DNA of 22,798 nt, from IMG/VR virus record IMGVR_UViG_3300035224_000295, positions 1 through 22,798 of that record; one strand, given 5' to 3'. Every line of letters begins with the position of its first letter. The first letter of the stretch is position 1. The position numbers and the translations under genes were made by a program. This stretch comes from a virus. Under the pieces are notes generated by a model. The model was not told the DNA's origin. It made no database searches and saw only the letters and a program-made list of their open reading frames with translations. This document shows, in pieces, positions 1 through 16,804 of the stretch.

Positions 1-1318
1 CACTAGCATCTTGTCCATCAAAGCTAAACTCAGGAGAACTAACATCACCAACCATTCTAAATGTAGTTGCACTTGCTAGTTTATCAGTTGAACCTGATCT
101 ACCACTAATTGATCCTGTTACGTTACCTGTTACGTTACCAATAAAGTTCTGCGAAAATACATTTAAGAACTGTTCGTTTTGAGTACCAATGTTTCTTGTT
201 GTTGTAATGTTTGGAACAATATTACCTGTAGTTAATAATCCGCCAACGTTTGCATCGCTACCTACATATAATCTTTTAGCAATACCAACACCACCTTTAG
301 CAATAATGCTACCTGTGTTTATAGTTGAACTGTCTGTTGTTCCGTTAACTAATACGCTACTGTCTGTTTGTATATTTCCAACTACATCTAATGACTCAAC
401 TGGTGCTAAGTTATTAATACCAATTTTGCTTGTTGAATCAACACGTAAAACTGTAGTAGTTGTACCTTCATTGTTAACTCTAATATCAATGTTTGATCCA
501 CTTGTTTGGTGACCAATAATACCTGCTTGTCCTTCAATACCAATGTTCAATGCACTATCTGCACCTACTGTGATACCTGAATTGTTTTTAATTTTAACAG
601 CAACTAGGCTGTTAGTTTCTTTGTCAGCTCTAAGGAAGTTTGCCGCTGGAACATTTTCTGATCCAATAACTAATGCTTCTGCTTTTTCTGCTGTACCTAA
701 ATATTTTGCAGTACCTGAACCAGTGATATCAAATGTACTTAAATTGTATCCTGGCTTAATACGTGTAAAGCCTTGTATTGTAGTCTTTGGTGTAAATGCA
801 TCTGTTGAAATAATTGCAAGTGTTTTTGCTTTTACTTCAATAACTAAAACTGTGTACGTAACATTATCTGTACCGATAATAGTTGTAGGTTTAACACCTG
901 TTGATAGTCCATCACTAAATGTTGGTCCAACTAATATCCAACCTGAACCTGTATACAAATATAATTGTTGGTTGTCTGTATCAACCCAAAGGTCACCTGT
1001 AACTGATTGGTTTGCTTCTGGTGCTGTTGTAGCTTTCTTTAATCCTGATGCACTAACCCAGTTAGTTCCATCATATAATTTTAACTGATCAACACCTGGT
1101 GTTGTATCATACCACAACTGTCCTTCTACTGGATTTGTTGGTGCTGTGTTAAAAGCAAAGTTTTCTAATAAGTGTAAGAAGTTTTCGGCAATAGCTGTAC
1201 CGTAAGCAGTTGTATTTCTGCCTGGCAAGTCCAAGGACGTTTGTTGGTTAATAGTGTTGTCTTCAACAACAATAGTACCTTTTTGGGATAAGTCAGTATA
1301 TTGTACAGTATATGCCAT
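1..1318 (-). CDS. Tail-fibre-like virion protein, N-terminal part (3' end outside window)
   Basis: The frame opens with MAYTVQYTDLSQKGTIVV at 1318 and stays open to base 2, giving 439 codons with no stop; the rest lies beyond the window. GAGG stands 8 nt before the ATG, inside the last codons of the preceding gene. Residues 65-87 and about 105-125 are two copies of a G-x-L-W-x-D-T...L-x-L-Y-x-G-x-x-W unit, common near the start of phage fibres. Residues about 297-325 (KIGINNLAPVESLDVVGNI) match the G-I-x-x-x-x-P-x-x-x-L-x-V-x-G pattern that recurs in fibres ending in an intramolecular chaperone. Residues about 369-391 (NIGTQNEQFLNVFSQNFIGN) and GNVTGNVTGSISG are shaft-like repeats. A self-cleaving chaperone at the unseen C-terminus is plausible but not visible. 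It probably contacts the host surface. Confidence 0.75.
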   Translation of the reverse strand, partial: MAYTVQYTDLSQKGTIVVEDNTINQQTSLDLPGRNTTAYGTAIAENFLHLLENFAFNTAPTNPVEGQLWYDTTPGVDQLKLYDGTNWVSASGLKKATTAPEANQSVTGDLWVDTDNQQLYLYTGSGWILVGPTFSDGLSTGVKPTTIIGTDNVTYTVLVIEVKAKTLAIISTDAFTPKTTIQGFTRIKPGYNLSTFDITGSGTAKYLGTAEKAEALVIGSENVPAANFLRADKETNSLVAVKIKNNSGITVGADSALNIGIEGQAGIIGHQTSGSNIDIRVNNEGTTTTVLRVDSTSKIGINNLAPVESLDVVGNIQTDSSVLVNGTTDSSTINTGSIIAKGGVGIAKRLYVGSDANVGGLLTTGNIVPNITTTRNIGTQNEQFLNVFSQNFIGNVTGNVTGSISGRSGSTDKLASATTFRMVGDVSSPEFSFDGQDAS

Positions 1319-1321
1319 TTA

Positions 1322-1939
1322 TTAAACCTCGTTAAAACCTGTTAAACTCTGTACTCTAACAGTATAATCAATTTGGATTAATCTGTTTAGTGATTTTTGT
1401 ACAGGGTGGAAAATTACGTGTGTTAGCAATCTGCCTGTTCCGCTAGTTGCATAACTTACAAGTCCTAACTCGTCAAACACATACAAACTATCGTTTGCTG
1501 TTGCGTTATCAAGAGCATCTTGCCCACTAGGCTCACCATAGTCTAACAAACAAGTTGCTACAATATCTGTGTAGTTTGTTCCGCTTACGTGTCTAGTTTC
1601 TAATTTGTTTCTAGTAGGATCAACGTTATTAACATTATTGTTGTCAATAACTTTAGCGTATGTTTGATTGTACAAACTAGCGTTAGTTCCTGTTGAGTTT
1701 GGTGACAAGTACGTAATAATACCCGTTGGGTCTACGTTAGTACCGCCATTACCAAATGCCATTTGGTAGACCATACCTTGTCCTTGATTAGATAAACTTT
1801 CCGCTAATGAAATACTCATGTTCTCGTAGTGAATAGCATTACGCTTGTCCACCAAGATTTCACCAGTTTCTGGATTGTGTATCTTGATGTGCCCTTGCAA
1901 AAGAACACCTTGTTTATCATTAAATTTGTCTGTCATCAT
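1322..1939 (-). CDS. Conserved-type virion structural protein of unknown function (205 aa)
   Basis: I do not know an assigned function. The protein begins with a short beta-rich unit (GHIKIHNPETGEILVDKRNAIHYEN, about residues 16-40). A MAFGNGGTNVDPTG segment follows at about 60-73, then an Asn/Thr-rich middle. The C-terminus has FDELGL (about 155-160) and a strongly patterned TGTGRLLTHVIFHPVQKS...IDYTVRV end. GNGG and FDELGL-type motifs recur in small tail or fibre-associated proteins of marine T4-like phages as I recall them. Its position between the giant protein and a fibre suggests an adaptor or connector, but that is inference. Either of two adjacent ATGs may be the start. It is followed by only 3 bp before the fibre gene. 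Confidence 0.8.
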   Translation of the reverse strand: MMTDKFNDKQGVLLQGHIKIHNPETGEILVDKRNAIHYENMSISLAESLSNQGQGMVYQMAFGNGGTNVDPTGIITYLSPNSTGTNASLYNQTYAKVIDNNNVNNVDPTRNKLETRHVSGTNYTDIVATCLLDYGEPSGQDALDNATANDSLYVFDELGLVSYATSGTGRLLTHVIFHPVQKSLNRLIQIDYTVRVQSLTGFNEV

Positions 1940-1954: not shown

Positions 1955-1962
1955 TATTTATT
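1955..1962 (-). promoter_or_regulatory. Possible T4-type late-promoter -10 element at the end of the giant gene
   Basis: The coding strand reads AATAAATA, one base from the T4 late element TATAAATA, overlapping the giant gene's stop codon and 16 nt before the first ATG of the next gene. A start here would let the 205-aa and fibre genes be made independently of the 14.8-kb gene. The leader would be only about 10 nt. The same octamer also occurs inside the coding sequence at 2197-2204, so chance is a real alternative. Confidence 0.3.
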
Positions 1963-4900
1963 TAGGTAACGCCACCTCTGTTGTCCTTAAGAACCTTGCA
2001 ATGTCATTTTCCTGCCTATGTAAAGGAATTCCAGTGTCAGTCCAAGGTCTACCAATGCGTCTAACCACCACTATCTTGGTATTAATAGGTGGTGTTTCAG
2101 CTAATACAACAGTTGAAGTTGTTCCATCGACACTAAACTCCGCGGGCGACACAATATCTGCCTCTGGGCTGTCTAAATCAACAGTTGGATCATATGTATT
2201 TATTGCATTTTTACGCAGGCGCTTACCAGCGACAAATATTTCAAATTCATGTACTGAATTTGGAATAAAGTCTACTACAATGCTACTAGTTGAACCATCT
2301 GCTGTAAATGTTTGCTGAAGTGTTCTATCTTGATATGGTACAGTTTGCTTATTACTCTGATCTAATAGTTCAGCGCCTTTAGCATGTACTGTTGCAATAC
2401 CCGTTCCTAGCGTACCTCTACGTAATTGTCTAAGTACTCCATCTTCTTTTAAGTAATATTCAATACGCTCTCCATCAACAAATACAATACCCGGAATACT
2501 ACGCTCTTTATTTGGTTGAGGTAGTGTATCAGAGTTAGTAACTTTGATGCTAGTATCGTAATAGTTTAGATCTTCTGCTAAGAAGTATTGTGAATCATCA
2601 CCTAAACGTTTAAAGTGTGTTCTATTAAGCATATCTTTGAATTGACTAAACCCAAACTTAGGAATAATAGTACTATTACTAAAGTGTATTACTTCCATTT
2701 CGTCATTTGCATCAATATCAACTGCTACTCTAATAGTTACTTTGTCTTCTAGTAATGCATATTCAACATTTGGACTTAATAGTACGCCATTTTTAGTTAA
2801 CCATACATAACTTGTATCAATTGCAGGAGTTCTTAGTTTAATAAATCCGTTTGCTAATTGATGATATTCGTTATATTCTTTTGTATCTGTTGTAAGTGTA
2901 GCTCTTGCAACAACATCTAAATTAATTCTTTCAATTTTTGCAACATCATGATTACTAAATTGATAAACAGTTACCTTTTCACCGTTTTGTGGAGCAGTTG
3001 TTAACTGTACTTGATTAGGTGTTTCAACCCAATATCCGTTAACATCAAACACACCAAAGTCGTACTCTCCGTCACCTAGTAAGTAAACATCTAAAATGTC
3101 TCCGTTGTTACCAACACCAGCAAACAATTCAACACTTGAATTAAATCTATTCCAAATATAACTTGTTGATAATATTTGCTCTACACCGTTTAAGAATACT
3201 TTAATTTTTTCTGCTGGTATCTGTGCAAGTCCAACTTGCCAATCACGCAGTTTGTATTCTCTAGTTGTTGAAACTGTATACTGTTGATTGTATCCAGGTG
3301 TAAGTATTTTATTACCTACTTTAACAACTACGCTGTTTGCTAATGGGCGTTGTGTAAACGGTGCATTAGCTAAATTAAATGTTTGTAATGATCCTGAACC
3401 TGTAAACTCATCAATTGATATCTGTGAGAACGACTTAGCCGCACTATCATAAATTACATATTGTATAAGTTCACCTGGAAGAGGAGCAACTGGCAATCTA
3501 AGTAATACTTGTCCTGCTGTTTCGTATGTTGCATCTGTTTCTGCAAGTACAGCATTAAGTGGATTACCATCTTTTGTAAGGAATAAACTTAGTCCTGCTT
3601 TAAATTTAACTGATGTAACAAACACTGATGTTGATCCGTCACCTGTAAATGTGTCAGCATCAAGAATGTTTTCACCGTTTGCTGACATTGTAATAATGTT
3701 AACACTTTGTCCGTTTGCTATTGCAACGCTGTTATCTAATGTTAATGTTTTATCTTGGTAGTTTACAGTAAACAAACTGTTATTACCTGAATCTAAAATT
3801 GTTCCGTTAGCTTTAACAAATACATCTTTACTACTTGCTGGTACTCTATCAAGGTTAAATGTACGGCTTCCTGTGTAAATGTAATTGTAATTATTAATAA
3901 TACTTGAACCATCATTAATTCTATCATATACTTTAATGTTTACACTATCAAGTAATTGCCCTGGTACAAGTTCTTCAGGTCCTTTTGATGTTAATGGAGT
4001 TACAAATCCATCACCGTCAACTACAATTTCCTCTGCACTAATACCTTTTGCAGTTGAGTATGCTATGTCACCACCTTGTAACATTGTATCATATGCATCT
4101 GCATCTGGTAAGAAACTACCATCACTTGTTGATTTTCTAATAACAATTACATCGTTACCTGCTGTTGAAATCTTATCATTGTCAATAACAAATGTATCTG
4201 TTGTGCCGTCACCTAATAGTGAATTCATTACTGCATTTGGATTACCTGGAACTGTTGATCCGTCATATTCTGGATCGTCAATTCTAATACCATTTTTGTA
4301 TACGTTATATGTAACGCCATTAACTAATGGAGCAGACAATGTTAATACTTGTGTACTTCCATCTAGTTGGAAAATTTCATCTTCGTATGTTGCATCATAT
4401 GAATCCCAAGTAGTTGTGTAGTATGGTTCGTTACCATATCCTGTACCAGTATTAAATGCAAAACTCTTAACTTGTACTCCACCGTAATCAATACCGTCCA
4501 TTAACTGTGAAATATCATTACCTAACTGTCCTGTTGTAGGATTATAGAATAAGTTAATTCTATCTTGTGCTTGTAACATTGATACATCTTTTTTGTATGT
4601 AACAATAATAACTGCATTATTAGCTGGTGGATTTTCAAATGCAATACGTCCTTTGTATCTTGTGTAGGACTTGTCAGTATATTCTTTATTGCTAACTGAA
4701 TAGTTACCTTGTAATTCTTCAATACCGTCAACTGTAATACTAACTTGGTTACGTCTTACGTCCATTGGCCATTTAACATCAAATAATGTTGAACTGTTAT
4801 TACCTGTAAACGTTTGTGTTTCTGCTAATGAAGTAATTAAGAACGTTCCTGTTACACGGTCAAACTTGCTACGCAAGTGCATTGCTCTAATTTTACTATT

Positions 4901-7900
4901 ACCTATTTGTGCCGCCGCTTTAGCAATTCTACTTTCGTTAACAGTTGACAAACTACCTTCAATTTCAATAGTGGGTGCTGACAAATATCCTGAACCTGGA
5001 TTTGTAACTTCAATGCTTACAACACTTCCGCCTGATCCTAATTTAGCAAGTCCTTTAGCACCTGTTCCACCACCGCCAACAAATTTAATAACAGGTATTT
5101 CAGTATAACCTATACCTTTGTCACTAATGTTACAGCTAGTTATTTCAAAGCCTACATTATCTAACCAATGTTTATTTGGATATGTGCTTAATGATGCATC
5201 TTGTCCGTATATTAAGTTGTCTTTAACTTTAAGTGATGCTGGTTCAATACGTTGTGTTTCTTCGTTGTATTGCGGAGCAAAGTCAAAGTCACTAGTACTA
5301 CTTGCAGTTAAATCTGTTTTAGTATAGTTACTTAGGTATTCTCTAATTTTTGTTTTGAAAGGTTTAGTTTCTTTAACAAATTCTTCATAGCTTGGTAAGT
5401 TATCATTTTGGAATGTAACTTTTTGTTGTAATTCACCAGCATTGTGTTTTGCTTTAATGAAACTAGTTTTAAATGCCCAATCAACAAATGGTTGCTCTGC
5501 AAACGCATATCTAATACTTGCTAGGAATAACTGATTATATTCTACTTCTAAGCCGTCAACAAATATATCATCTCTAAGTGCCTTTAGAATAATACGCAAT
5601 TCGTTAGTTGGTTGGTTATCGTAGAACGCTGTATCATAACTTAATCCGTCAAAGCCTACAAAGCTCTTAGTAAAGTTATACAGTTCTTCTTTAAATGCTA
5701 TAGTTCCGTTTTGTCTACCAATAGTTCTATAGTTACTTGTGTAATCACTTGCTTCTTCGTTACTAATTTTTTCTAGTAACAACCAACCACCAGTACCAAT
5801 GTTTTTAATTTTAACAATATCACCAATAGTGTCAGGTAATGCTGTTAGTAAATAACTTTGATCAATAGTAAAATCAATATCAGTAAATGTAGTGTAACCT
5901 GTAGCATACCAATCAATATAACTCCACCAGTTACTTACATCATATGCTTGTGTTGATGTTCTTTGATATTCAGTTAATGCTGTGTTGTATGAAAATATTG
6001 ACCATTTACTGTTTACAGTTTCGTCACTCTTAACAAGTACACTAAACAATCTTATTGATAAGTTTGTATTTGCTGAATAGTTTTTACCTGGGTTTCTAAC
6101 TGTCACGCTACCTATACCGCCTGCGGTATTAAGTGTTATTGTAACTTGTGCTTTTTCACCATCGCCAACTTGCTCAAAGTCGTATGTTGGTACTGTAATG
6201 TAACCCGAACCTGCATTTGTAATTTCAACTCTAATTAATTTTCCTTCTTCAAATACAGGAGTTAGCGTTGCTGGTTTAACTTTTGAAATATTAACAAAGT
6301 CAAGCTCAGAATATGTATCAACTGCTACGTCATATTTAGAACTAATAATTTCTGGTTGTGGATCTGATGATAATAAGTTAGTAAAACTATACTCATCTAC
6401 AATTAATTCTTTAGCCAACACTCTATTAGTACGTTCAATTACTTGTTTAAGTGCTTCAGTATTATTTTTAAACATTGACTGTCTAGGTCTATTAAGTATA
6501 CCATATTGCTGTTTAGGCGATACTGCTGGATCAGGAACTGGTCTATTATAAACATCTACGCCAACTAAGCTATCAATCCATTTAGCTTCTAAATCTTTGT
6601 TAGGTTTACTTGATGATAATCCATCAGTAATAAGTTGATACTGACTGTGTTGATTAATTTCTTGATTAGGAATTGTCCAATATCTAAAGTTAATTGCTTT
6701 TTTATCTTCTTCAACTAAGCTACCACAGTTATATAATCCAAATCTATCATTGGAATAAACTGCAACAAATTTGTAACCTTGTGCCGCTGGATCATTAATT
6801 AATTGTGCAACATCATACGCACTTGATTTTCTGTTTTCAAGTGTAGGAATAATTTTAGTATTCTTAACCCAATAGTAATATTTGTTATAGAAACTTGTAC
6901 TTACATTATTGTATAATCTCTTAGTTACAAATGTAGCAGTTCCGTATTTAGGTGTTCCACTAATTCCTCTTGCTAATCCATCTTCTGTATCAGCTAGTTC
7001 TAACCACTGTGTTGGTGTTAGTGAAGTTTCAACCCATTCATATACATCTATACTAGATCCAACCATTTGCTGGTTAAAGTTAGCTGTGTTATAAATGATA
7101 TTATTCTGGTATGGCTCAACCCATTGTACTGTACTAATATCCCACCATAGTTTACCTACGTGTTCATTAGCCCAATAATTTTCTGCATCTACATTTACAC
7201 TAGCTTGGTCGCTTGTAGTATAAGTTGCAGGATCAAACGGTGTTGTAAATGCTAATTCTTCTTCAGCCGGTCCAGCAATTTTTCCTTGGATAGGATCAAT
7301 ATAATCTAATTGTGTTGCTATTCCACTTCCGTCTTTACTGTAAATAAAGACACCTTTAAATTTACCTAAGTCAACTTGTTTAGTTGGACTTCTATATGTC
7401 TGCCATGGAAGTTCGTTACGTTGACGTTTGTAATCTACAACTGTACCAATAAAGTTATTACCTGTATTAGATGCACTTAGCTCTGGCATTGAAACATATA
7501 TGTGGTTGTTTGACGCATGGATAAATTCTCCAAAGCGTTCAACGTTACTGTTATTAAATGCTAATTTCTCTGCATACAATAAGTAACCACCAACATACTG
7601 GTAAATGAATACTTCGCCACTGTCTAAGTTTTCTTTACTAAACTGTGTTAAGTTATTATCGTATGTAGTTTCAACTGCTAAATCAGATTCTTTACTGTTA
7701 ACGTGTTGTGCTGTTACAAGTGTACTATCGTCTAAGTACGTTTGCGGTTGCGGATCCATTGCGGCTGTGTATCTGTCAAAGGAAGTGTTATCAACTAAGT
7801 TACCACCTTGTGATGATACCATTAGTTGGTTACCTGAGAAGTCAACTGATTGACCAAAACGTTCTGCTACAGAACTATCCGGACTATAAAGCTCTTGGAA

Positions 7901-10900
7901 TAAGTTAAATGTACCTTCTGTATTTTTGTATAGATAAACTTTACCATTGTCATTTGCTACTGTGTCGTCTAACGGAGCACCAACTGCAATTAATTCACCG
8001 TCATCACTTATTGATATTGACGATGCATATTTTGTAGATACAACAGGAGTTTCAACAACCTGTGAATATTCGTAATGGTTATTATTAAATCTATAAATTG
8101 CAATCTTAGGACTTGCATTTTCAAAGTCGGCTACAGTTGCTAATACACTTCCGTTTTTACTTACAGTAAATGGATGTGCAAAATTATATAAAGTGTTGCC
8201 ATCATTCTCAAACGTACTATCGCCATCTGGTTGATAACCTGTATCGTTTGGAACATGTCCAATAAAGTCAATGTTCTGTGCTAACAATGTCCAGCTTGTA
8301 CTAAATGCACTTGCTACTTGGTTAGTTGAACTCTTATAAAACTGATTATTATAAAGTACAATATCGTTTGTAAAATATGCTAACGTATCACTAAAGACAC
8401 CTTTATATGAAGGATCATTAGTAAATGCCCAATCGTATGTACCGTTACTGTCAACACCGTTTTTAACAAAATGTATTCTACCTGGATTAGTTCCGTTACC
8501 CGCACCTGGCGCACTTACAAACAATCTATATAGATTGTCTTGCTTAGTCATCTCAAGTTGTGTAGCTAAGTTTTTATTATTGCCTCTTTCAAGGTTTGTA
8601 TAACCGTGTTGTAAACTGTATTCTCCACTACCTGTTTTGTTGTAGATAAAGTATGCACCTTCACTACTGTACGCACTTGCAACACCGTCTTTAGGATCAA
8701 TTGGTAAGTTGTATATTTGTGTGTATTCTTTGTTTAATGGAGTTGGAATATTTGCTGTACGTGCCGCACCTGTTACAGAACGGTTTGTATAAAACTGGAA
8801 TTCAATTTCATTTTTAAATGTTGGCGTTGTTACTTGCAACAAAGTACTATCATTATTTCTAACAACAATATACTTACCTGAGTAATCAGTTGACAAGTCT
8901 GTTGATTCAATACGTCCTGTTAATCTATTAAATCCTTGACCTTGCCAGTTACTAATATGTAACTCACCAGTTGCTCCATGTGTGTTACCATATGCAAACA
9001 CTCCAGCACTTGTATCTAAGTTTTTAACAAATACTCTTGCACCAAGTAACCCTTCTTGTACATACGCTACAGTTGCATATGCACCTGTAAATAATTGTGT
9101 TACAATGTCGCCTTCAACTGGAACATATGGAACTTGGTTCGGTGGTGGTGTAAAGTTAGTAAATGTAATATCAATATAACCGTCCCACAAGTCATGTACT
9201 GTGTGAGGTGAATTTATGTATCCAAAGGACAATCCTAATGCTGATGGATCGTAAATTGTATTCAAGCTATCTTTAACTTGATTCATTGACATTGTAAAGT
9301 TATCTGTAGGACTTAAAATATCTGTAATTGTTTTTGGTGCTCTAACAAACCAATATGGTTCTGTTATAGGAAGTCCTTGTTTATTGTAATGACTTATTAT
9401 TCCAATTTTACCGCCTTTAGTTGGATTACCTATATCATTATTAAATGCTTTTACATCGTCCATTGTATTTGCCGCAACTTCTGGTGTTCTACTTTCTGAT
9501 GAAAGTATAAAGTCGCCTACTACAAGATTTGGAATTGTAATTGTTTTTTCTGTAGTTGTAAAGCTATTGATGCCGTCAATTCTCCACCACCCACCGTATG
9601 CTGTATTTGGGTTAGCAAATTCAACAGCCGTATAAGTTCCCATGTCAACGCTACTAGTTATTAGCGAACCTGTAGACTCAAATGCACCATTAACATCTGT
9701 CATATACAACATTGCTGAGTTAACATTATCAATAATAATATCTTGTAATGTACCGATTGCTGTTGGTGTAGATATAATGTCACCTACTGCTGGTGTTCTT
9801 AAAATATTGTCAACATATAAAATAGCATCAATCTTTCCAGCAATAACTTTAGTGCCTTCAAATGATGCAACACCTGGTCCATTAACACCAAATGGTAATA
9901 CACCGTTTGGATAGTTTTGTGAATATTGATTCCATTGTAAACTAATTTTATCGTTAACGCTTGAACCTTCATAAGGATCTGCTGGAGCTCTAACTAATAT
10001 ATGATCTGTTGCTCCGTCAAAACTGTAACGTCCTCTGATTGCATATACTGTTTCTGGATATACTCCGTCAGCATAACTGTTAACTGCAACATCATGTGAT
10101 GCATGATAGCTGTTAAATGTAAATGATCCAGACGCCGCTGTAATAGCGTAATTTGCTCTCCATAGATTCTGTTGATAAGAAACAATATCGTTTGTTGCAT
10201 AGTTTGCAGAATCTGAAAACTCACCTTTGTATAATGTTTTAAGATTACTTGCTTGTGGTGCACCAATTGCTAAAAATTCTGCATCTTCTGCAATAGCAAC
10301 TGACTTACCAAAGTTTCCGTTACCAGAGTAATAAGTTGCACCTGGTTCTTCAATTGTTTGAAGGTGTTGGAATTCTGCTGTGTCTGTAGTTCTTCCAAAC
10401 AAGTATACTTCGTTATTACCTGGAGCACTAATTACAAGTGTTGTATTTCTTTGGTCTGCCGCTATTACTTTACCAAACTCTACACTTGAATCACTAGTTT
10501 TAATATTTGATAAAACTTGTTGCTCAGAGTGTACTGGCTCATTCTTTAATACTAACCAGTTGTCTGTAATGTCTGTGTCAATCCAAATTGTTTCACCAAC
10601 TTTTAGATCGTTGTTATAATCTGATAATAACAAGTTTGCACTATCAAAGCTAGGTGTTCTATTAGAATTAAATCTAGTAACAAATCCGTTTAATAATTCA
10701 GCATCTTCAACAGTACCATTAGGGTAACAAATTAATGTATCAAGCTCGTTACGCTTAACTTTGAAAAACTTGTTAGCACCTGTAACATCAACTATACCAA
10801 TAATTTCGTCAATTTCGTATCTTGATTGTTTACCAAGTGTGATTACAAATTCTTCTACACCAGTAACTGATGATGTTTGAATAGCAAGTACTCTATCATT

Positions 10901-13900
10901 AGATCTAATATACTTTAAAACGTCCCATGTAATACCTTTTTTACCAGTCCAAACATAATCGCCAACATTAAGTTCTGACGGTGATTGGTTTAATAAATCT
11001 TCGTATGTTGCTATTGATAGTTTTACGTCTTGCGGGTTTACATATCCTGCTGTTGGTAATACATTTTTTTGAACATCGTTAGTTGGAAACGGCTTATGAG
11101 TATACCCTTGAGGTTTTAAATAAGTTTCAAACGGTCGTATTCTATAAATCAAGTCTGTTTCATCACCTGAGACTGTATCAACTAATTCAACAGGCTGTGG
11201 ACTTAGTCTAAAGTTTGCTTCGTCAAGTGTATATTCAACTTCGTCAAACGCTGTTGATGATCCGTATTGACCTAATCTAAATCCCCATTCTTCATAAAAG
11301 TCTAAGCTATCTGCATCTGTATTAGATAATGCATCAAACAATTTAGTTAAGCTATTTTTTGTACCCTTGTCTTGAATAAATCCTTGATAGAATTTATACT
11401 GACTTACATCATCATTAATAATGTTTTCTAAATACTTACGCTTTTGATATCCAATTAAATGTTGTGCTAGTCTTTGCTGATCATTGTCAAAGTTATCTGT
11501 ATCAAGATCATAGAAGTCACCAAATTGTTTTGCTTTATAATCTAAGTTTGCTTTTAATCCTGCTTCAGGACGAACTTCTAGCTTTTCCCACTCTTTGTTA
11601 TCAAATATATTTGTTCCAGGTATTTTTACCTTTGCAACATAATAAAATTCTTTATACTTAACTGTGTCACCAACTGCATAATCTTTCCATGCTTCCCAAA
11701 CAGTAGTGTCTGCACTATCGTAAATAAATCCAGGGATATTAAATCCGCCTGTCCACGCATCAGTTCTATAGCCCATAACTTTAAGTCTTGCTTGGCGATA
11801 GCCTGGTGCTTGATCGTAAATTACATCTTTAAATACTGTAGTGTTATCAAGTATTATTACGTGTTCTTTTTGTACTAGAGGAATATTAACATTGTAAATA
11901 CCGTCAGCAGTATTTCTAGTTGATATTGTAAATTCATTATCGTTATCTCTACCAACTCTTACATACTCTGGTATTAGTTTTTTACCATCTGCTTTTAATA
12001 AACTGTATTGATAGAATGTATCAAAAATATTATCTGCAACATTTTTCTCTTTGTAAAACTTTAATTCGTTTGCACCCGGACTTAGTGTAATAACACTATT
12101 TTCTGCCCAACCTTGTGTTGTCCAGAATAAAAATTCTTTAGCACTTACTCTCCAGTTTTCTACATCTAAAATCTGTTCACTAAATTTATTAAATGTAAAT
12201 CCTTCGCTTTCTAAATATTTGCTGTAGCCTAATAAAAAGTCAACTACTTCTTGTACTGTTCTAAACATTGTACCGTATAGTAACTCTAATGGCTCTTTTA
12301 CTAATTCAGTATTAAATTCACGTCTAAAGAACGCACTACGTCCTCCCTTCATAGGAATTTCAGGTAGCTTTTGATATAATGATTGGTCAAAATCTGTTCC
12401 AGCTACGTGTTGAGATTTAGCAACATAATATTCATTACCAAATTGGATTATTGATCCTTCAGCGTATGTTTTATTTTCACTCCACTTTACAAAGTCTTCA
12501 CTAATGCCGCCAACTGTAACAACTGGGTCATCTGCTTTTGGTGTTGGAGAAAAGTATTTGAAGTATGGGTTAACTCTGTCGTAACCTCTAACAATAAATC
12601 CTTCAGCTTTCTTTTCAATAATTACACCACTGTAAGAAACTAAGTTTGTTACAGAACTTGTGTTTAAGAAAATTTGATAGTTTTCATCTGGTACAAAAAC
12701 ATTACCTTCATTGTAAGGTGTTCTTGAATCAAGTATTAATTTAAACTTACTCTTTTCAGTAAAGCCTCCAAGTTTAATTCCTAACTTGTTATTAATAGCT
12801 TTTACATTTGCTTTATACTTTGTATAAACATCAACATCTTTACTGTTTAAATAGTTTGCAACTATGTTTACTAATCCACAAGTGTTTACTCTTGTTTCGT
12901 CTGTTGATGTATTTGGAAATACTAAATCTTGTAATTTTAAACGTTTACCTGTTGTACTATAAACAATAGTGCCTGCACTATCTCTAATAATTCTACTTCT
13001 ATCCCAACCAAGACCTAATACTCTACTTGGCTGATTTAACATTAATGAAATTAGCAATGCAAACGGATATTCACTACTTCTTCTCCAAGCAGTTTCTGTT
13101 GGTCCTTCATCGCCAAATTTAAATGGATTTTTAGTACTACCTAATACAAATTCTTTTGCGTAGTTAGCATCAACTGGACTTAATAAGTTACCTGCATCAT
13201 CAACTGGTATCCAATTAGTAAGTCCTGGGCGTTTATAATGTTTTAAGTATTCTGCAGGAGCGCCTGGCTTTCTGCATATACCATCTTCAAGGTCTTGCCA
13301 TAACAACATGTTTTCACTTGTGTATGGTGCTTTACCATATTCTGTTTCCCACCATGTAGGTTTAACACTTAGTCCTAACATTTCCCATGGATGAGTATGT
13401 GGGCGATCAGTATCAAATGCTTGTTTATAAACTGCTCTCCAGTATCCTGGGTTAGTGCTATTGTTTGCACCTAGTGTTGAAGAATAATTATATGTAAATG
13501 TATCTGTTGCTTCATAAAAGTCGTAGTTTGTATAATCTGGATTACCTACAACAGATAGCCAATCAATAAATTCTGCAATCATTCCTTTATCAATAGCCCA
13601 TTTAGGAATACCTGTTGATCTGTTTGAGCCACCTACAAAGTCATGTACATCAAATAGTGATGTATTGTATGGTACTTTTAAGTTGTTATAAATTCTTTTT
13701 TCTAATTCAAGTAATAAGTCATCTCTAAAATCGTTGTATGCTACAAAAGTAGATCCGTCATGTCCTCTAATAACAGTTTGGTCAACTCCGTAAGTATTAT
13801 CAATAAACTTAGTAGGAACATATGCAGGATATAAACCTAACTTAGTAGGTGTTTCTGGAATGTATGAACCATCTGTATTTTCATATTCGTATATTGTAAT

Positions 13901-16789
13901 AACATCGTCAATAACATTTGGCGTTATAATTTTTATAAATCCTTCAAACCCTACTTCAAATTCATAATCTTGTCCATGACATAGTAAAGCACCATTACGG
14001 TACACGCTTATTGCTTGATTCGATAATGAACGTAAACTATAATCTGCTGTTAAACTGTAGTATTCTTGTGACGCACTAAAAACTGTGTGTATGATTTCGT
14101 TACTGATACCATGCCCAATCATATCACTAAAGTAAAACGGCATGTCATTTGTTTTGTTTAGATTTAGTTCAGTTATTACTTTGTCAAAATGGATTCTTGT
14201 TGTTCCGTCATAACCTAAGTTCTCAGCTGTTTGTAAAAACTTTCTTCTAAACTTGCCGTACTCTGCTCGTGCATATTTTAATGCGTTAATAACGTTTGCA
14301 GTTTTATCTGTTATGTGATATACTGCAAGGTTAGTTAATCCACTATGTTGTGTAAATCTACTTCCGTATGGTGATAAGTTTCCTAAATCTCTTAGGTTAC
14401 TAGTTCCGGGAAAGTTTCCTGTCCAATCATTTCTAAATTCAGTAATAGATTCAACATGATCATTAACTTCACCTAACGTAAATGACTCAATATTTTCGTT
14501 CTTAGGATTACGTTCGTAGTTAATTGGGAATTCGTAAATACCGTTAGCATTTTTCTTTGTAGCACTATCAGTTTTAATTACTATAATATCGTCTTCTACA
14601 AGATCCTTTGTAAACGTAACATACGCTACACCATTAATTCTGTTTATAGCATAATCTATATTTTCTAATTTACGTTTATCGTTAACATAAACTCTTACCC
14701 AAAGATCGTTTAAATCTCCACTGCGGTCATATACATCAATAGCAAACTCATTAAACTGTGTTGCTACAACATATTGTCTATTAACTAACTGTTTACTTTC
14801 TGTATTTCCTTTGATCCAGCCACTTACGTATGTAAATGTCTCTCTATCGCTGTACTGTCTTAGTACACCGTTATCAGACTTTGCAGTAATAACTGCATTA
14901 CTTTGTTGGTAAGTATGATTTGTGTTTAACAAATTAAAATCAAACTCAATATCACCGGTATTTTCTAATGCTCTATAACTTAAAGGAAATCCTAATTCAA
15001 TATCATTAGTTCCTGTACCTTGCTTGTAACTAAACAGTTTATTACCAATAAACGTTGTACTAGGATATGTTGTTGTATTAGAAAAACTAACACCATTAGT
15101 ATCAAACAAGTCAAACATTGGTGTTTGATTAGTTGCTGTTTTTTCTTGTGCTACACACCATTTAGTTCCGTTGTAATACCACATTTTACCTTTGTTAGTA
15201 TTACCAGCTTCAACTAGTACTACTTCATTTAACAATGGTGTTGTATCAGCTTCTTCAATTAAACTAATTTGTCTAACATTATTATGAGTAATAAAGTTTA
15301 CTTTATAAATTTTACCTTTAACTCTTGTGTCAGGATCACCTGTAAACAAGATACGCATATCGTCTGCAACATCAACTCCGTCAATGTTATAACCTAATGA
15401 TCCTTCAATAGTACTAAACACATCAGCTGTAAATGTATCAATTAAGTCTACATTATCTTTTGCTGATGTACCAAACTCATGTAATTTAATATTTTCGTTA
15501 AATTCAATGATCGGACGTTTAGCTCTGTTTGCTTGATCAATTTCTGGTATAATTCCATTAATAGTTGCTGTAGTTTCAATAACAGATTTGTGTGTCCATC
15601 TATTATATCTTGACCATGGATTTAAATCAGCACTTGACCTGTTCATACAAACATAATCTTTTGTGCCTGCAAAACTATTTGCATTACTAAACGGTACTCT
15701 GTCAAATGCTTCTGAATCAAATGGTACAGGCTTATCTGTAGAATATGTTCCAGGTATCTGTACGTTTGCATCAGATACTAATTTAATTTTATCTCCTACG
15801 CCTTCAACATACCATTCGCCTTGAGCATATTTTGCAGGAGTTACATCACCTTGGAAGTATAATTTCATTCCATTTGATAACGCATATCCGTTTGACATTG
15901 TATAATTTTGTTTGCCAATTATTTCTGCTTCAACATCAATTTTACTGTTTTCTACAATATCATAAATTTTAATTAATCCACTTGTATTAATATCATTGCC
16001 ATTAATATAATATAATGTGTCTGGTGCATTAATATCAACTTCAAATGTAATTGTACCAACGTCAGTTGTTTGTGTGCTATCATCAAGACCGGTTGTATAT
16101 AACACTTCAGCATCTAAACTTCTAGCAGTTCTAAACGTTAGAGGCATGCCAGGAGTATTAAGAACAAATGTATATGTTTGTCCTCTATATAATTTTAATG
16201 ATGGATTTTGTGTTTTGCCGTCTGGTGAAAATACATATGCAGTATTGTCAAGGTTATCTTCACTAGTAACAGTAAATGTACTGTCAATGTCTCTAGCTTG
16301 TCCTGCAACACCAATACCTATTGGACCGTTTGGTAGCCAATAGTATTCTCTATAATTAGTAAACTTATCCCAATTAATATGTGGGTTCCAAGAATAGTAT
16401 TCTTGTTTGTTTAGTACGCTGTCGTTTTCAACTGTACCATTAAACGCTCTAATTTGATTTTTAAAGTCGTTATAATCTTTGTAAAATGTAACGTTGTTTA
16501 ATTCGTCTTGTACTAAAGTAGCAGGTTCAAATTGATAGTTTTCTCTATCTGCATTAGTATCTGTAATATAATTATCAGATGCAACTCTAGCTTTTGCAAT
16601 ACGTCTTCCGTAGTATGCTGATATCTTTTCAGCTACACCAGGATTTAAAAGTTGATCAAGTGTAGCACTAAGAAACTTTTTATTCGAATCCGTTCTAAAG
16701 TATTTAGGTAAGTGATCTGCACTAGTCCTTTTAGATTGATTTGCTCCAACTGGAAGAGCATTATCGGATTGATTATCGTTAAAAGCCAT
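1958..16789 (-). CDS. Giant multi-domain virion structural protein (4943 aa)
   Basis: One uninterrupted reading frame covers 14.8 kb. It starts at MAFNDNQ with a good Shine-Dalgarno and ends in ARFLRTTEVALPK. I know no established function. Position between gp6 and a fibre-like gene, and resemblance to very long structural proteins I recall from marine T4-like phages, suggest a baseplate-rim, fibre or adhesin role. Landmarks by residue: 112-155 Tyr/Trp-rich N-terminal motif (WNPHINWDKF, YYWLPNGP); 469-563 beta-rich region with DMRILFTGD and TATNQTPMFDLFD; 1129-1170 PWEMLG..KP.WW...YG.APYT; CBM5/12-like modules near 1434, 1696, 2187 and 2795; seven FG-GAP-like blades between 2103 and 3124; 3160-3272 IDPIQGKIAG, GKLWWD and VYEWVE; NPGSGY-type modules near 3510 and 3885; 3990-4620 and 4826-4920 beta-rich repeats, separated by a FVDGERIEY...RRGTLGTG segment. 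No signal peptide, membrane segment, protease or lytic catalytic motif was seen. The reading frame is certain; the function is not. Confidence 0.9.
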   Translation of the reverse strand: MAFNDNQSDNALPVGANQSKRTSADHLPKYFRTDSNKKFLSATLDQLLNPGVAEKISAYYGRRIAKARVASDNYITDTNADRENYQFEPATLVQDELNNVTFYKDYNDFKNQIRAFNGTVENDSVLNKQEYYSWNPHINWDKFTNYREYYWLPNGPIGIGVAGQARDIDSTFTVTSEDNLDNTAYVFSPDGKTQNPSLKLYRGQTYTFVLNTPGMPLTFRTARSLDAEVLYTTGLDDSTQTTDVGTITFEVDINAPDTLYYINGNDINTSGLIKIYDIVENSKIDVEAEIIGKQNYTMSNGYALSNGMKLYFQGDVTPAKYAQGEWYVEGVGDKIKLVSDANVQIPGTYSTDKPVPFDSEAFDRVPFSNANSFAGTKDYVCMNRSSADLNPWSRYNRWTHKSVIETTATINGIIPEIDQANRAKRPIIEFNENIKLHEFGTSAKDNVDLIDTFTADVFSTIEGSLGYNIDGVDVADDMRILFTGDPDTRVKGKIYKVNFITHNNVRQISLIEEADTTPLLNEVVLVEAGNTNKGKMWYYNGTKWCVAQEKTATNQTPMFDLFDTNGVSFSNTTTYPSTTFIGNKLFSYKQGTGTNDIELGFPLSYRALENTGDIEFDFNLLNTNHTYQQSNAVITAKSDNGVLRQYSDRETFTYVSGWIKGNTESKQLVNRQYVVATQFNEFAIDVYDRSGDLNDLWVRVYVNDKRKLENIDYAINRINGVAYVTFTKDLVEDDIIVIKTDSATKKNANGIYEFPINYERNPKNENIESFTLGEVNDHVESITEFRNDWTGNFPGTSNLRDLGNLSPYGSRFTQHSGLTNLAVYHITDKTANVINALKYARAEYGKFRRKFLQTAENLGYDGTTRIHFDKVITELNLNKTNDMPFYFSDMIGHGISNEIIHTVFSASQEYYSLTADYSLRSLSNQAISVYRNGALLCHGQDYEFEVGFEGFIKIITPNVIDDVITIYEYENTDGSYIPETPTKLGLYPAYVPTKFIDNTYGVDQTVIRGHDGSTFVAYNDFRDDLLLELEKRIYNNLKVPYNTSLFDVHDFVGGSNRSTGIPKWAIDKGMIAEFIDWLSVVGNPDYTNYDFYEATDTFTYNYSSTLGANNSTNPGYWRAVYKQAFDTDRPHTHPWEMLGLSVKPTWWETEYGKAPYTSENMLLWQDLEDGICRKPGAPAEYLKHYKRPGLTNWIPVDDAGNLLSPVDANYAKEFVLGSTKNPFKFGDEGPTETAWRRSSEYPFALLISLMLNQPSRVLGLGWDRSRIIRDSAGTIVYSTTGKRLKLQDLVFPNTSTDETRVNTCGLVNIVANYLNSKDVDVYTKYKANVKAINNKLGIKLGGFTEKSKFKLILDSRTPYNEGNVFVPDENYQIFLNTSSVTNLVSYSGVIIEKKAEGFIVRGYDRVNPYFKYFSPTPKADDPVVTVGGISEDFVKWSENKTYAEGSIIQFGNEYYVAKSQHVAGTDFDQSLYQKLPEIPMKGGRSAFFRREFNTELVKEPLELLYGTMFRTVQEVVDFLLGYSKYLESEGFTFNKFSEQILDVENWRVSAKEFLFWTTQGWAENSVITLSPGANELKFYKEKNVADNIFDTFYQYSLLKADGKKLIPEYVRVGRDNDNEFTISTRNTADGIYNVNIPLVQKEHVIILDNTTVFKDVIYDQAPGYRQARLKVMGYRTDAWTGGFNIPGFIYDSADTTVWEAWKDYAVGDTVKYKEFYYVAKVKIPGTNIFDNKEWEKLEVRPEAGLKANLDYKAKQFGDFYDLDTDNFDNDQQRLAQHLIGYQKRKYLENIINDDVSQYKFYQGFIQDKGTKNSLTKLFDALSNTDADSLDFYEEWGFRLGQYGSSTAFDEVEYTLDEANFRLSPQPVELVDTVSGDETDLIYRIRPFETYLKPQGYTHKPFPTNDVQKNVLPTAGYVNPQDVKLSIATYEDLLNQSPSELNVGDYVWTGKKGITWDVLKYIRSNDRVLAIQTSSVTGVEEFVITLGKQSRYEIDEIIGIVDVTGANKFFKVKRNELDTLICYPNGTVEDAELLNGFVTRFNSNRTPSFDSANLLLSDYNNDLKVGETIWIDTDITDNWLVLKNEPVHSEQQVLSNIKTSDSSVEFGKVIAADQRNTTLVISAPGNNEVYLFGRTTDTAEFQHLQTIEEPGATYYSGNGNFGKSVAIAEDAEFLAIGAPQASNLKTLYKGEFSDSANYATNDIVSYQQNLWRANYAITAASGSFTFNSYHASHDVAVNSYADGVYPETVYAIRGRYSFDGATDHILVRAPADPYEGSSVNDKISLQWNQYSQNYPNGVLPFGVNGPGVASFEGTKVIAGKIDAILYVDNILRTPAVGDIISTPTAIGTLQDIIIDNVNSAMLYMTDVNGAFESTGSLITSSVDMGTYTAVEFANPNTAYGGWWRIDGINSFTTTEKTITIPNLVVGDFILSSESRTPEVAANTMDDVKAFNNDIGNPTKGGKIGIISHYNKQGLPITEPYWFVRAPKTITDILSPTDNFTMSMNQVKDSLNTIYDPSALGLSFGYINSPHTVHDLWDGYIDITFTNFTPPPNQVPYVPVEGDIVTQLFTGAYATVAYVQEGLLGARVFVKNLDTSAGVFAYGNTHGATGELHISNWQGQGFNRLTGRIESTDLSTDYSGKYIVVRNNDSTLLQVTTPTFKNEIEFQFYTNRSVTGAARTANIPTPLNKEYTQIYNLPIDPKDGVASAYSSEGAYFIYNKTGSGEYSLQHGYTNLERGNNKNLATQLEMTKQDNLYRLFVSAPGAGNGTNPGRIHFVKNGVDSNGTYDWAFTNDPSYKGVFSDTLAYFTNDIVLYNNQFYKSSTNQVASAFSTSWTLLAQNIDFIGHVPNDTGYQPDGDSTFENDGNTLYNFAHPFTVSKNGSVLATVADFENASPKIAIYRFNNNHYEYSQVVETPVVSTKYASSISISDDGELIAVGAPLDDTVANDNGKVYLYKNTEGTFNLFQELYSPDSSVAERFGQSVDFSGNQLMVSSQGGNLVDNTSFDRYTAAMDPQPQTYLDDSTLVTAQHVNSKESDLAVETTYDNNLTQFSKENLDSGEVFIYQYVGGYLLYAEKLAFNNSNVERFGEFIHASNNHIYVSMPELSASNTGNNFIGTVVDYKRQRNELPWQTYRSPTKQVDLGKFKGVFIYSKDGSGIATQLDYIDPIQGKIAGPAEEELAFTTPFDPATYTTSDQASVNVDAENYWANEHVGKLWWDISTVQWVEPYQNNIIYNTANFNQQMVGSSIDVYEWVETSLTPTQWLELADTEDGLARGISGTPKYGTATFVTKRLYNNVSTSFYNKYYYWVKNTKIIPTLENRKSSAYDVAQLINDPAAQGYKFVAVYSNDRFGLYNCGSLVEEDKKAINFRYWTIPNQEINQHSQYQLITDGLSSSKPNKDLEAKWIDSLVGVDVYNRPVPDPAVSPKQQYGILNRPRQSMFKNNTEALKQVIERTNRVLAKELIVDEYSFTNLLSSDPQPEIISSKYDVAVDTYSELDFVNISKVKPATLTPVFEEGKLIRVEITNAGSGYITVPTYDFEQVGDGEKAQVTITLNTAGGIGSVTVRNPGKNYSANTNLSIRLFSVLVKSDETVNSKWSIFSYNTALTEYQRTSTQAYDVSNWWSYIDWYATGYTTFTDIDFTIDQSYLLTALPDTIGDIVKIKNIGTGGWLLLEKISNEEASDYTSNYRTIGRQNGTIAFKEELYNFTKSFVGFDGLSYDTAFYDNQPTNELRIILKALRDDIFVDGLEVEYNQLFLASIRYAFAEQPFVDWAFKTSFIKAKHNAGELQQKVTFQNDNLPSYEEFVKETKPFKTKIREYLSNYTKTDLTASSTSDFDFAPQYNEETQRIEPASLKVKDNLIYGQDASLSTYPNKHWLDNVGFEITSCNISDKGIGYTEIPVIKFVGGGGTGAKGLAKLGSGGSVVSIEVTNPGSGYLSAPTIEIEGSLSTVNESRIAKAAAQIGNSKIRAMHLRSKFDRVTGTFLITSLAETQTFTGNNSSTLFDVKWPMDVRRNQVSITVDGIEELQGNYSVSNKEYTDKSYTRYKGRIAFENPPANNAVIIVTYKKDVSMLQAQDRINLFYNPTTGQLGNDISQLMDGIDYGGVQVKSFAFNTGTGYGNEPYYTTTWDSYDATYEDEIFQLDGSTQVLTLSAPLVNGVTYNVYKNGIRIDDPEYDGSTVPGNPNAVMNSLLGDGTTDTFVIDNDKISTAGNDVIVIRKSTSDGSFLPDADAYDTMLQGGDIAYSTAKGISAEEIVVDGDGFVTPLTSKGPEELVPGQLLDSVNIKVYDRINDGSSIINNYNYIYTGSRTFNLDRVPASSKDVFVKANGTILDSGNNSLFTVNYQDKTLTLDNSVAIANGQSVNIITMSANGENILDADTFTGDGSTSVFVTSVKFKAGLSLFLTKDGNPLNAVLAETDATYETAGQVLLRLPVAPLPGELIQYVIYDSAAKSFSQISIDEFTGSGSLQTFNLANAPFTQRPLANSVVVKVGNKILTPGYNQQYTVSTTREYKLRDWQVGLAQIPAEKIKVFLNGVEQILSTSYIWNRFNSSVELFAGVGNNGDILDVYLLGDGEYDFGVFDVNGYWVETPNQVQLTTAPQNGEKVTVYQFSNHDVAKIERINLDVVARATLTTDTKEYNEYHQLANGFIKLRTPAIDTSYVWLTKNGVLLSPNVEYALLEDKVTIRVAVDIDANDEMEVIHFSNSTIIPKFGFSQFKDMLNRTHFKRLGDDSQYFLAEDLNYYDTSIKVTNSDTLPQPNKERSIPGIVFVDGERIEYYLKEDGVLRQLRRGTLGTGIATVHAKGAELLDQSNKQTVPYQDRTLQQTFTADGSTSSIVVDFIPNSVHEFEIFVAGKRLRKNAINTYDPTVDLDSPEADIVSPAEFSVDGTTSTVVLAETPPINTKIVVVRRIGRPWTDTGIPLHRQENDIARFLRTTEVALPK
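2030..4822 (-). repeat. C-terminal array of fibre-like beta repeats in the giant protein
   Basis: Residues about 3990-4620 and 4826-4920 contain repeated units. Each opens with F-x-G-[DNS]-G/N-S-[ST]..F or a variant (TFTGNNSSTLF about 3991, TFTGDGSTSVF about 4379, EFTGSGSLQTF about 4462, TFTADGSTSSI about 4827, EFSVDGTTSTV about 4884). Each continues to a V-x-V-x-x-x-G strand-turn such as VSITVDGIE, LFLTKDGNP, VFLNGVEQ or IFVAGKRLR. The style recalls the N-terminal region of T7-type fibre proteins. Units have diverged, so DNA-level repeats are weak. A non-repeat segment (about 4700-4825, including FVDGERIEYYL and RRGTLGTG) sits within the array. Confidence 0.65.
4955..5137 (-). repeat. NPGSGY-type module, copy 2, in the giant protein
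   Basis: Residues about 3885-3945 contain DKGIGYTEIPVIKFVGGGG, TGAKGLAKL and then VEVTNPGSGY-like IEVTNPGSGYLSAPTIEIE (P3931). It has the same two-half structure as copy 1 and is better conserved. Confidence 0.6.
6071..6262 (-). repeat. NPGSGY-type module, copy 1, in the giant protein
   Basis: Residues about 3510-3573 contain VEITNAGSGYITVPTYDF, then a Gly-rich turn and SVTVRNPGKNYS. A duplicated I-x-N-x-G-x-x-Y half-unit is visible. The same unit recurs about 375 residues later. Confidence 0.55.
8276..8407 (-). other. Domain: CBM5/12-like module 4 of the giant protein (between blades)
   Basis: Residues about 2795-2838 read YKGVFSDTLAYFTNDIVLY, then NNQFYKSSTN and a closing STSW (W2833). 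It lies between propeller blades 3 and 4 and is the paralogue of module 3. Confidence 0.5.
10124..10231 (-). other. Domain: CBM5/12-like module 3 of the giant protein (inside the propeller)
   Basis: Residues about 2187-2222 read YKGEFSDSANYATNDIVSY, with W2210 in NLWRANYA. It is placed right after the AP motif of propeller blade 2, at the start of the large insert. Its start closely parallels module 4 (YKGxFSDxxxYxTNDIVxY), suggesting duplication. Confidence 0.45.
11558..11704 (-). other. Domain: CBM5/12-like module 2 of the giant protein
   Basis: Residues about 1696-1744 are the best match of the four: W1698, W1701, then DYAVGDTVKYKEFYYVAKV, then a spacer and a closing EWEKL. The aromatic positions expected of a family 5/12 carbohydrate-binding module are present. 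Confidence 0.5.
12362..12490 (-). other. Domain: CBM5/12-like module 1 of the giant protein
   Basis: Residues about 1434-1476 follow the W....Y..G..V.y.....Y.a pattern: W1436, then TYAEGSIIQFGNEYYVAKS and an F-D-x-x-x-Y-x-K-L ending in place of the usual final Trp. It resembles the small chitin-binding modules of families 5/12; binding is inference. Confidence 0.45.
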
Positions 16790-16798
16790 TTAGCTTAT

Positions 16799-16804
16799 CC
16801 CCTT
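16799..16804 (-). promoter_or_regulatory. Ribosome binding site of the giant gene, overlapping the gp6 stop
   Basis: AAGGGG on the coding strand lies 9 nt before the ATG at 16789; its first two bases are the last two of the gp6 TAA. Only 13 bp separate the genes, so re-initiation by ribosomes finishing gp6 is likely. Confidence 0.6.

Follow-up and report, generated by a model that had tools for sequence, protein, structure and literature searches.

A giant protein encoded after gp6 in a marine phage baseplate operon, a probable equivalent of the wedge subunit gp7

Gene content of the baseplate operon

The window analyzed here, 22,798 bases in length, is the whole IMG/VR virus record IMGVR_UViG_3300035224_000295. 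The minus strand carries a run of genes that encode, in this order, an uncharacterized protein of 152 aa, a gp5-like protein (526 aa), gp25 (145 aa), a gp6-like protein (1146 aa), the giant protein that is the subject of this work, a protein of 205 aa and a fibre-like protein of 439 or more aa (Table 1). The giant open reading frame (positions 1958-16789) starts with ATG, is free of stop codons over 4943 aa and takes up 65% of the window. A Shine-Dalgarno motif, AAGGGGA, is located 8 nt 5' of the start codon (upstream letters TTAAGGGGATAAGCTAAATG), so that the unbroken frame and the good ribosome binding site proposed in a previous sequence-only reading of this DNA are both confirmed, with the coordinates exact.

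Of the 15 marine contigs, 14 encode the 205 aa protein, which also occurs in Atu_ph07, PA5oct and Vibrio 2.275.O, with identities of 42-100%; no similarity to T4 gp8, gp9, gp10, gp11 or gp53 was detectable. The first part of the fibre-like protein matches Atu_ph07 gp176, PA5oct gp358, which is annotated as gp10-like, and gene 422 of Vibrio 2.275.O. Judging from these alignments, the protein seems to combine a common N-terminal anchor with a variable remainder.

Table 1. Features of the operon and predicted regions of the giant protein (residue numbers refer to the giant protein)
Feature	Coordinates	Strand	Basis or remark
gp5-like hub protein, 526 aa	20755..22335	-	profile searches
gp25 wedge protein, 145 aa	20297..20734	-	PF04965
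gp6-like wedge protein, 1146 aa	16803..20243	-	phrog_10646 + phrog_219; cyanophage gp6 hhalign E 7e-17
AAGGGGA Shine-Dalgarno	16798..16804	-	overlaps gp6 stop codon
Giant ORF, 4943 aa, phrog_10938 family	1958..16789	-	ORF call + profile match
Conserved N-terminal region, residues 1-165, retained as far as RaK2-like phages	16295..16789	-	alignment/tblastn
Cupredoxin-like beta domain, residues 170-290	15920..16282	-	AlphaFold2 model + Foldseek
CBM5/12-like motif 1, residues 1433-1480	12350..12493	-	motif scan
CBM5/12-like motif 2, residues 1698-1745	11555..11698	-	motif scan
Most conserved stretch, residues 1745-1885, FYxGxIxxKG[TS]...EEW; candidate wedge (gp7-like) core	11135..11557	-	alignments
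FG-GAP beta-propeller with inserts, residues 2105-3140	7370..10477	-	Pfam FG-GAP_2, blades, alignment
CBM_5_12 (Pfam), residues 2191-2221	10127..10219	-	E 7.8e-8
CBM5/12-like motif 4, residues 2799-2845	8255..8395	-	motif scan
Second conserved core, residues 3131-4330	3800..7399	-	tblastn, alignment
GSGY-type beta repeat, residues 3499-3576, common to cyanophage giant gp7	6062..6295	-	hhalign E 2.3e-8
Second GSGY-type beta repeat, residues 3882-3973	4871..5146	-	hhalign E 2.3e-5
C-terminal region, residues 4331-4943; kept in 15 marine contigs	1958..3799	-	contig comparison
205 aa conserved protein after giant, phrog_11259	1322..1939	-	profile match + relatives
Fibre-like protein, 439+ aa, 3' open at window end	2..1318	-	relative of PA5oct gp358 start

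Integrity and conservation of the giant gene

The giant gene is intact and conserved. Relatives are encoded on 382 viral contig stretches identified in one IMG/VR scan, and in all 15 other contigs checked, which are marine, the gene is a single open frame of 4,600-5,292 codons. The dN/dS values, obtained for residues 1-4333 in comparison with three relatives (84-94% protein identity), are between 0.06 and 0.16 in every 550-codon block, indicative of uniform purifying selection. Two contigs contain the gene in two frames (L116, 9941-18928 and 18903-21878; L120, 4193-6064 and 5952-8396), reflecting either a sequencing frameshift or a true split, and the gene is also split in several K64-1 annotations. 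The possibility that the frame is a fusion of mis-joined genes, which the sequence-only reading had named as grounds for rejecting its own proposal, draws on the metagenomic origin of the contig and on these few split records. Given the numerous relatives, the single frame in the 15 independent contigs and in isolate genomes, and the low dN/dS along the chain, the giant is not a chance or assembly fusion; for practical purposes, this explanation is ruled out.

Domain architecture

The central part of the protein contains the propeller and some of the carbohydrate-binding-like modules that had been noticed from the sequence and that were recovered by Pfam searches and a motif scan. The FG-GAP assignment derives from a match to PF14312 (E 6.7e-11, residues 2921-2954) and five blade-like motifs. 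One CBM5/12 copy scores above the cut-off (32.7 bits vs 26.2) and three further copies are predicted by motif only; two of the four are located inside residues 2105-3140, and motif 2 is missing from Atu_ph07, PA5oct and RaK2 in the alignment. The propeller/CBM segment encompasses approximately 1,036 of the 4,943 residues and is absent from RaK2 ORF070. As judged by these comparisons, this part of the protein is real, yet is an accessory insert.

AlphaFold2 modeling yielded a pLDDT of 78 for residues 1-1200 and of 71 (pTM 0.38) for residues 3131-4330. Foldseek searches of PDB with both models revealed only the cupredoxin-like domain, which by tblastn occurs in fibre and gp9-like proteins of cyanophages as well, and weak likenesses to tail-adaptor and fibre proteins (best E for the second core, 1.4e-3) and to a KP1 baseplate. 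In PDB sequence searches, neither residues 1-1200 nor residues 1700-1960 had a relative, and residues 3131-4330 showed only a weak tailspike match of about 69 residues.

Homologs in RaK2-like jumbo phages

By profile similarity, the giant belongs to phrog_10938, a family that includes the giant proteins encoded after gp6 in RaK2-like jumbo phages. The match (PHROG hmmscan, E = 0, 1026 bits) extends over five stretches, the best of which spans residues 700-1691; the length of the family profile is 3324 aa. The named members, namely RaK2 ORF070 (3,326 aa), CBB_236, PA5oct gp355 (3,857 aa) and Atu_ph07 gp180 (4,449 aa), occupy the same slot after gp6 and share the same two conserved cores, with about 24-36% identity to the giant. 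In a tblastn search, residues 1-1000, 1001-2000 and approximately 3130-3840 were matched in 84-88 phage records, mostly from RaK2-like jumbo phages and their relatives, with about 23-36% identity at the best places, whereas residues 2001-3000 and 4001-4943 had no match in these records. The alignment shows the same pattern, with residues 1-1950 and 3130-4330 conserved and residues 1950-3130 variable and nearly missing in RaK2. Thus, compared with the RaK2 protein, only the marine giant has the propeller insert, and its C-terminal part has no tblastn match in the named phages.

The giant gene lies directly 3' of gp6 in eight phages (Atu_ph07, PA5oct, RaK2, Phosso, 121Q, GAP32, fENko-Kae01 and CBB). 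The exception is Salicola phage SCTP-2, in which the two genes are about 92 kb apart; there, the giant gene (L307, 3157-14580) sits after another gene of about 3,096 codons.

Peptides of three relatives are on record from virions. For CBB_236, virion mass spectrometry yielded 21 unique peptides, which cover 7.72% of the protein (PMC5259590); this protein was equated with FDG95_gp236 on the basis of the identical gene number and the same position beside the gp6 gene, 237. The records of PA5oct gp355 and of ENKO_265c, the homologue from fENko-Kae01, note detection by ESI-MS/MS and LC-MS/MS, respectively. Absence from virions, which the sequence-only reading had considered fatal to its proposal, is thus not what is observed for the relatives, and together with the operon context these data are in agreement with its assignment of the giant as a structural protein of the baseplate operon.

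The library labels, 'head and packaging' for phrog_10938 and 'head closure Hc2' for phrog_460, look misleading for a giant protein of a baseplate operon. The phrog_460 match (residues 3820-4005) was not accepted as an indication of function because it overlaps a GSGY beta repeat that is common to cyanophage gp7.

Comparison with gp7 and the search for a gp7 core

The gene order gp25-gp6-giant parallels the order 6-7 in T4, W-J-I in P2 and 25-6-7-8 in cyanophage P-SSM2. The annotated gp7 of P-SSM2 consists of 5195 aa, and in Syn33 the slot after gp6 holds a gene of 6376 codons, a size taken from its coordinates; both exceed the giant and bear out the earlier statement that very long structural frames exist in marine T4-like phages. 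The gene of Prochlorococcus phage Syn33, Syn33_092 (L143, 11916-28078; 19,131 bp), is labeled only 'structural protein'. The cyanophage proteins share with the giant the slot, the size class and the GSGY beta repeats; beyond these repeats, profile comparison detected no common region, and the N-terminal core of cyanophage gp7 had no significant match in the giant. T4 gp7 (1032 aa), which has a common core with the cyanophage giant (hhalign E 4.8e-6), likewise directly follows gp6 but is five times shorter than the giant of the window, with an undetectable sequence relation; the claim that the latter is longer than T4 tail proteins holds for the T4 genes compared, a set that does not include the gp34-37 fibres. 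P2 gpI (Tail_P2_I), a wedge subunit grouped with gp7 and with TssG of T6SS, follows gpJ as the giant follows gp6, and a KGT...EW motif is discernible in gpI by eye, but gpI is only 176 aa long and has no profile match to the giant.

Alignment by hhalign of the giant's family with T4 gp7, at full length and in segments, gave nothing. The stretch with the KG motif (residues 1745-1885) was the best of about 120 windows compared with cyanophage gp7, with a per-window E of 0.002 that is not significant; it was not the best window against T4 gp7 or OLIVR5, and its comparison with P2 gpI comes down to an unrelated 6-residue match. When an HMM was trained on known KG cores, the site in the relatives did not score above reversed controls, so that this candidate core is retained as a lead only. 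Pfam, PDB sequence and PDB fold searches yielded no gp7 match, the fold searches covering residues 1-1200 and 3131-4330, on either side of the candidate core. Given these results, the giant is not filed as a member of the gp7 family, and homology to gp7 is not shown by sequence. The operon's own gp6-like protein barely matches T4 gp6 (hhalign E 2e-4), which partially excuses the missing gp7 match.

A separate gp7 was sought with three gp7-type models, and none was found in seven complete genomes (Atu_ph07, PA5oct, RaK2, SCTP-2, Phosso, 121Q and GAP32), in the Vibrio 2.275.O record or in two marine contigs; the controls for these models were positive, that for PF23786 weakly so.

Predicted role in the baseplate

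Considering the order of genes shared with T4, P2 and P-SSM2, the giant is probably a much enlarged version of the third subunit of the baseplate wedge, the equivalent of gp7 (gpI in P2). This reading rests on position, the core tests by sequence and fold being negative or not significant, and is favored by the presence of the relatives in virions and by the conservation of the gene. The failure to find a separate gp7, the two conserved cores flanking a variable insert and the purifying selection also count for it; the negative core tests and the location of the SCTP-2 giant away from gp6 count against it. The wedge heterotrimer is defined by a 2:1 arrangement with gp6, with a three-helix bundle and a triangle (PMC6300606). 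By analogy with such a heterotrimer, a single copy of the giant would bridge two gp6 chains in each of the six wedges, the rest of the chain might build up the outer part of the wedge and offer surfaces on which the products of the fibre genes directly downstream could dock, and the propeller and CBM5/12 modules would be accessory inserts on the wedge scaffold. The slot is that of gp7, a part of the inner wedge heterotrimer, which argues against the previously suggested attachment to the baseplate rim.

The giant could instead be a peripheral baseplate scaffold or a hub of the fibre network, with the true gp7 encoded elsewhere in the genome and diverged past recognition. The undemonstrated gp7 core, the weak resemblance of the second core to tail-fibre and tail-adaptor proteins and the separation from gp6 in SCTP-2 are all compatible with such a role, but the slot and the conservation throughout the RaK2-like phages, along with the lack of another gp7 candidate with any of the three models, make it somewhat unlikely. 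The view advanced in the sequence-only reading, that the whole protein is a surface-recognition megaprotein attached to the baseplate rim, here taken to bind glycans of the host, appears very unlikely. It accommodates the FG-GAP propeller, the significant CBM5/12 copy with its three companion motifs, and the cupredoxin-like domain common to cyanophage fibre proteins; however, these modules account for the smaller part of the chain, the propeller segment is missing in RaK2, and purifying selection on this segment is the same as elsewhere in the protein. Furthermore, a separate fibre-like gene is located downstream, and in RaK2 receptor binding has been assigned to gp526-534 and gp098 (PMC10253068).

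A more elaborate version of the gp7-equivalent reading, which we consider quite unlikely, is that the wedge subunit contains a built-in host-sensing propeller, so that glycan contact would be relayed to the gp6 ring by mechanical means, with no need for a fibre joint of its own, and that the gp7 slot became giant on more than one occasion, in cyanophages and in RaK2-like phages.

Implications

Altogether, the giant is a real, conserved, structural protein of a kind already known from other large phages; on comparison with these, the marine form has a propeller insert and a distinct C-terminal part in addition. Through this giant baseplate protein, which is filed in databases as 'head and packaging' or 'hypothetical', a marine phage lineage that is abundant, as indicated by the contig stretches from the single scan, is linked to the RaK2-like jumbo phages. 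The gp7 slot is enlarged in cyanophages too and, if the giant is indeed the equivalent of gp7, the inner wedge of a contractile tail can bear approximately 4,000 extra residues.
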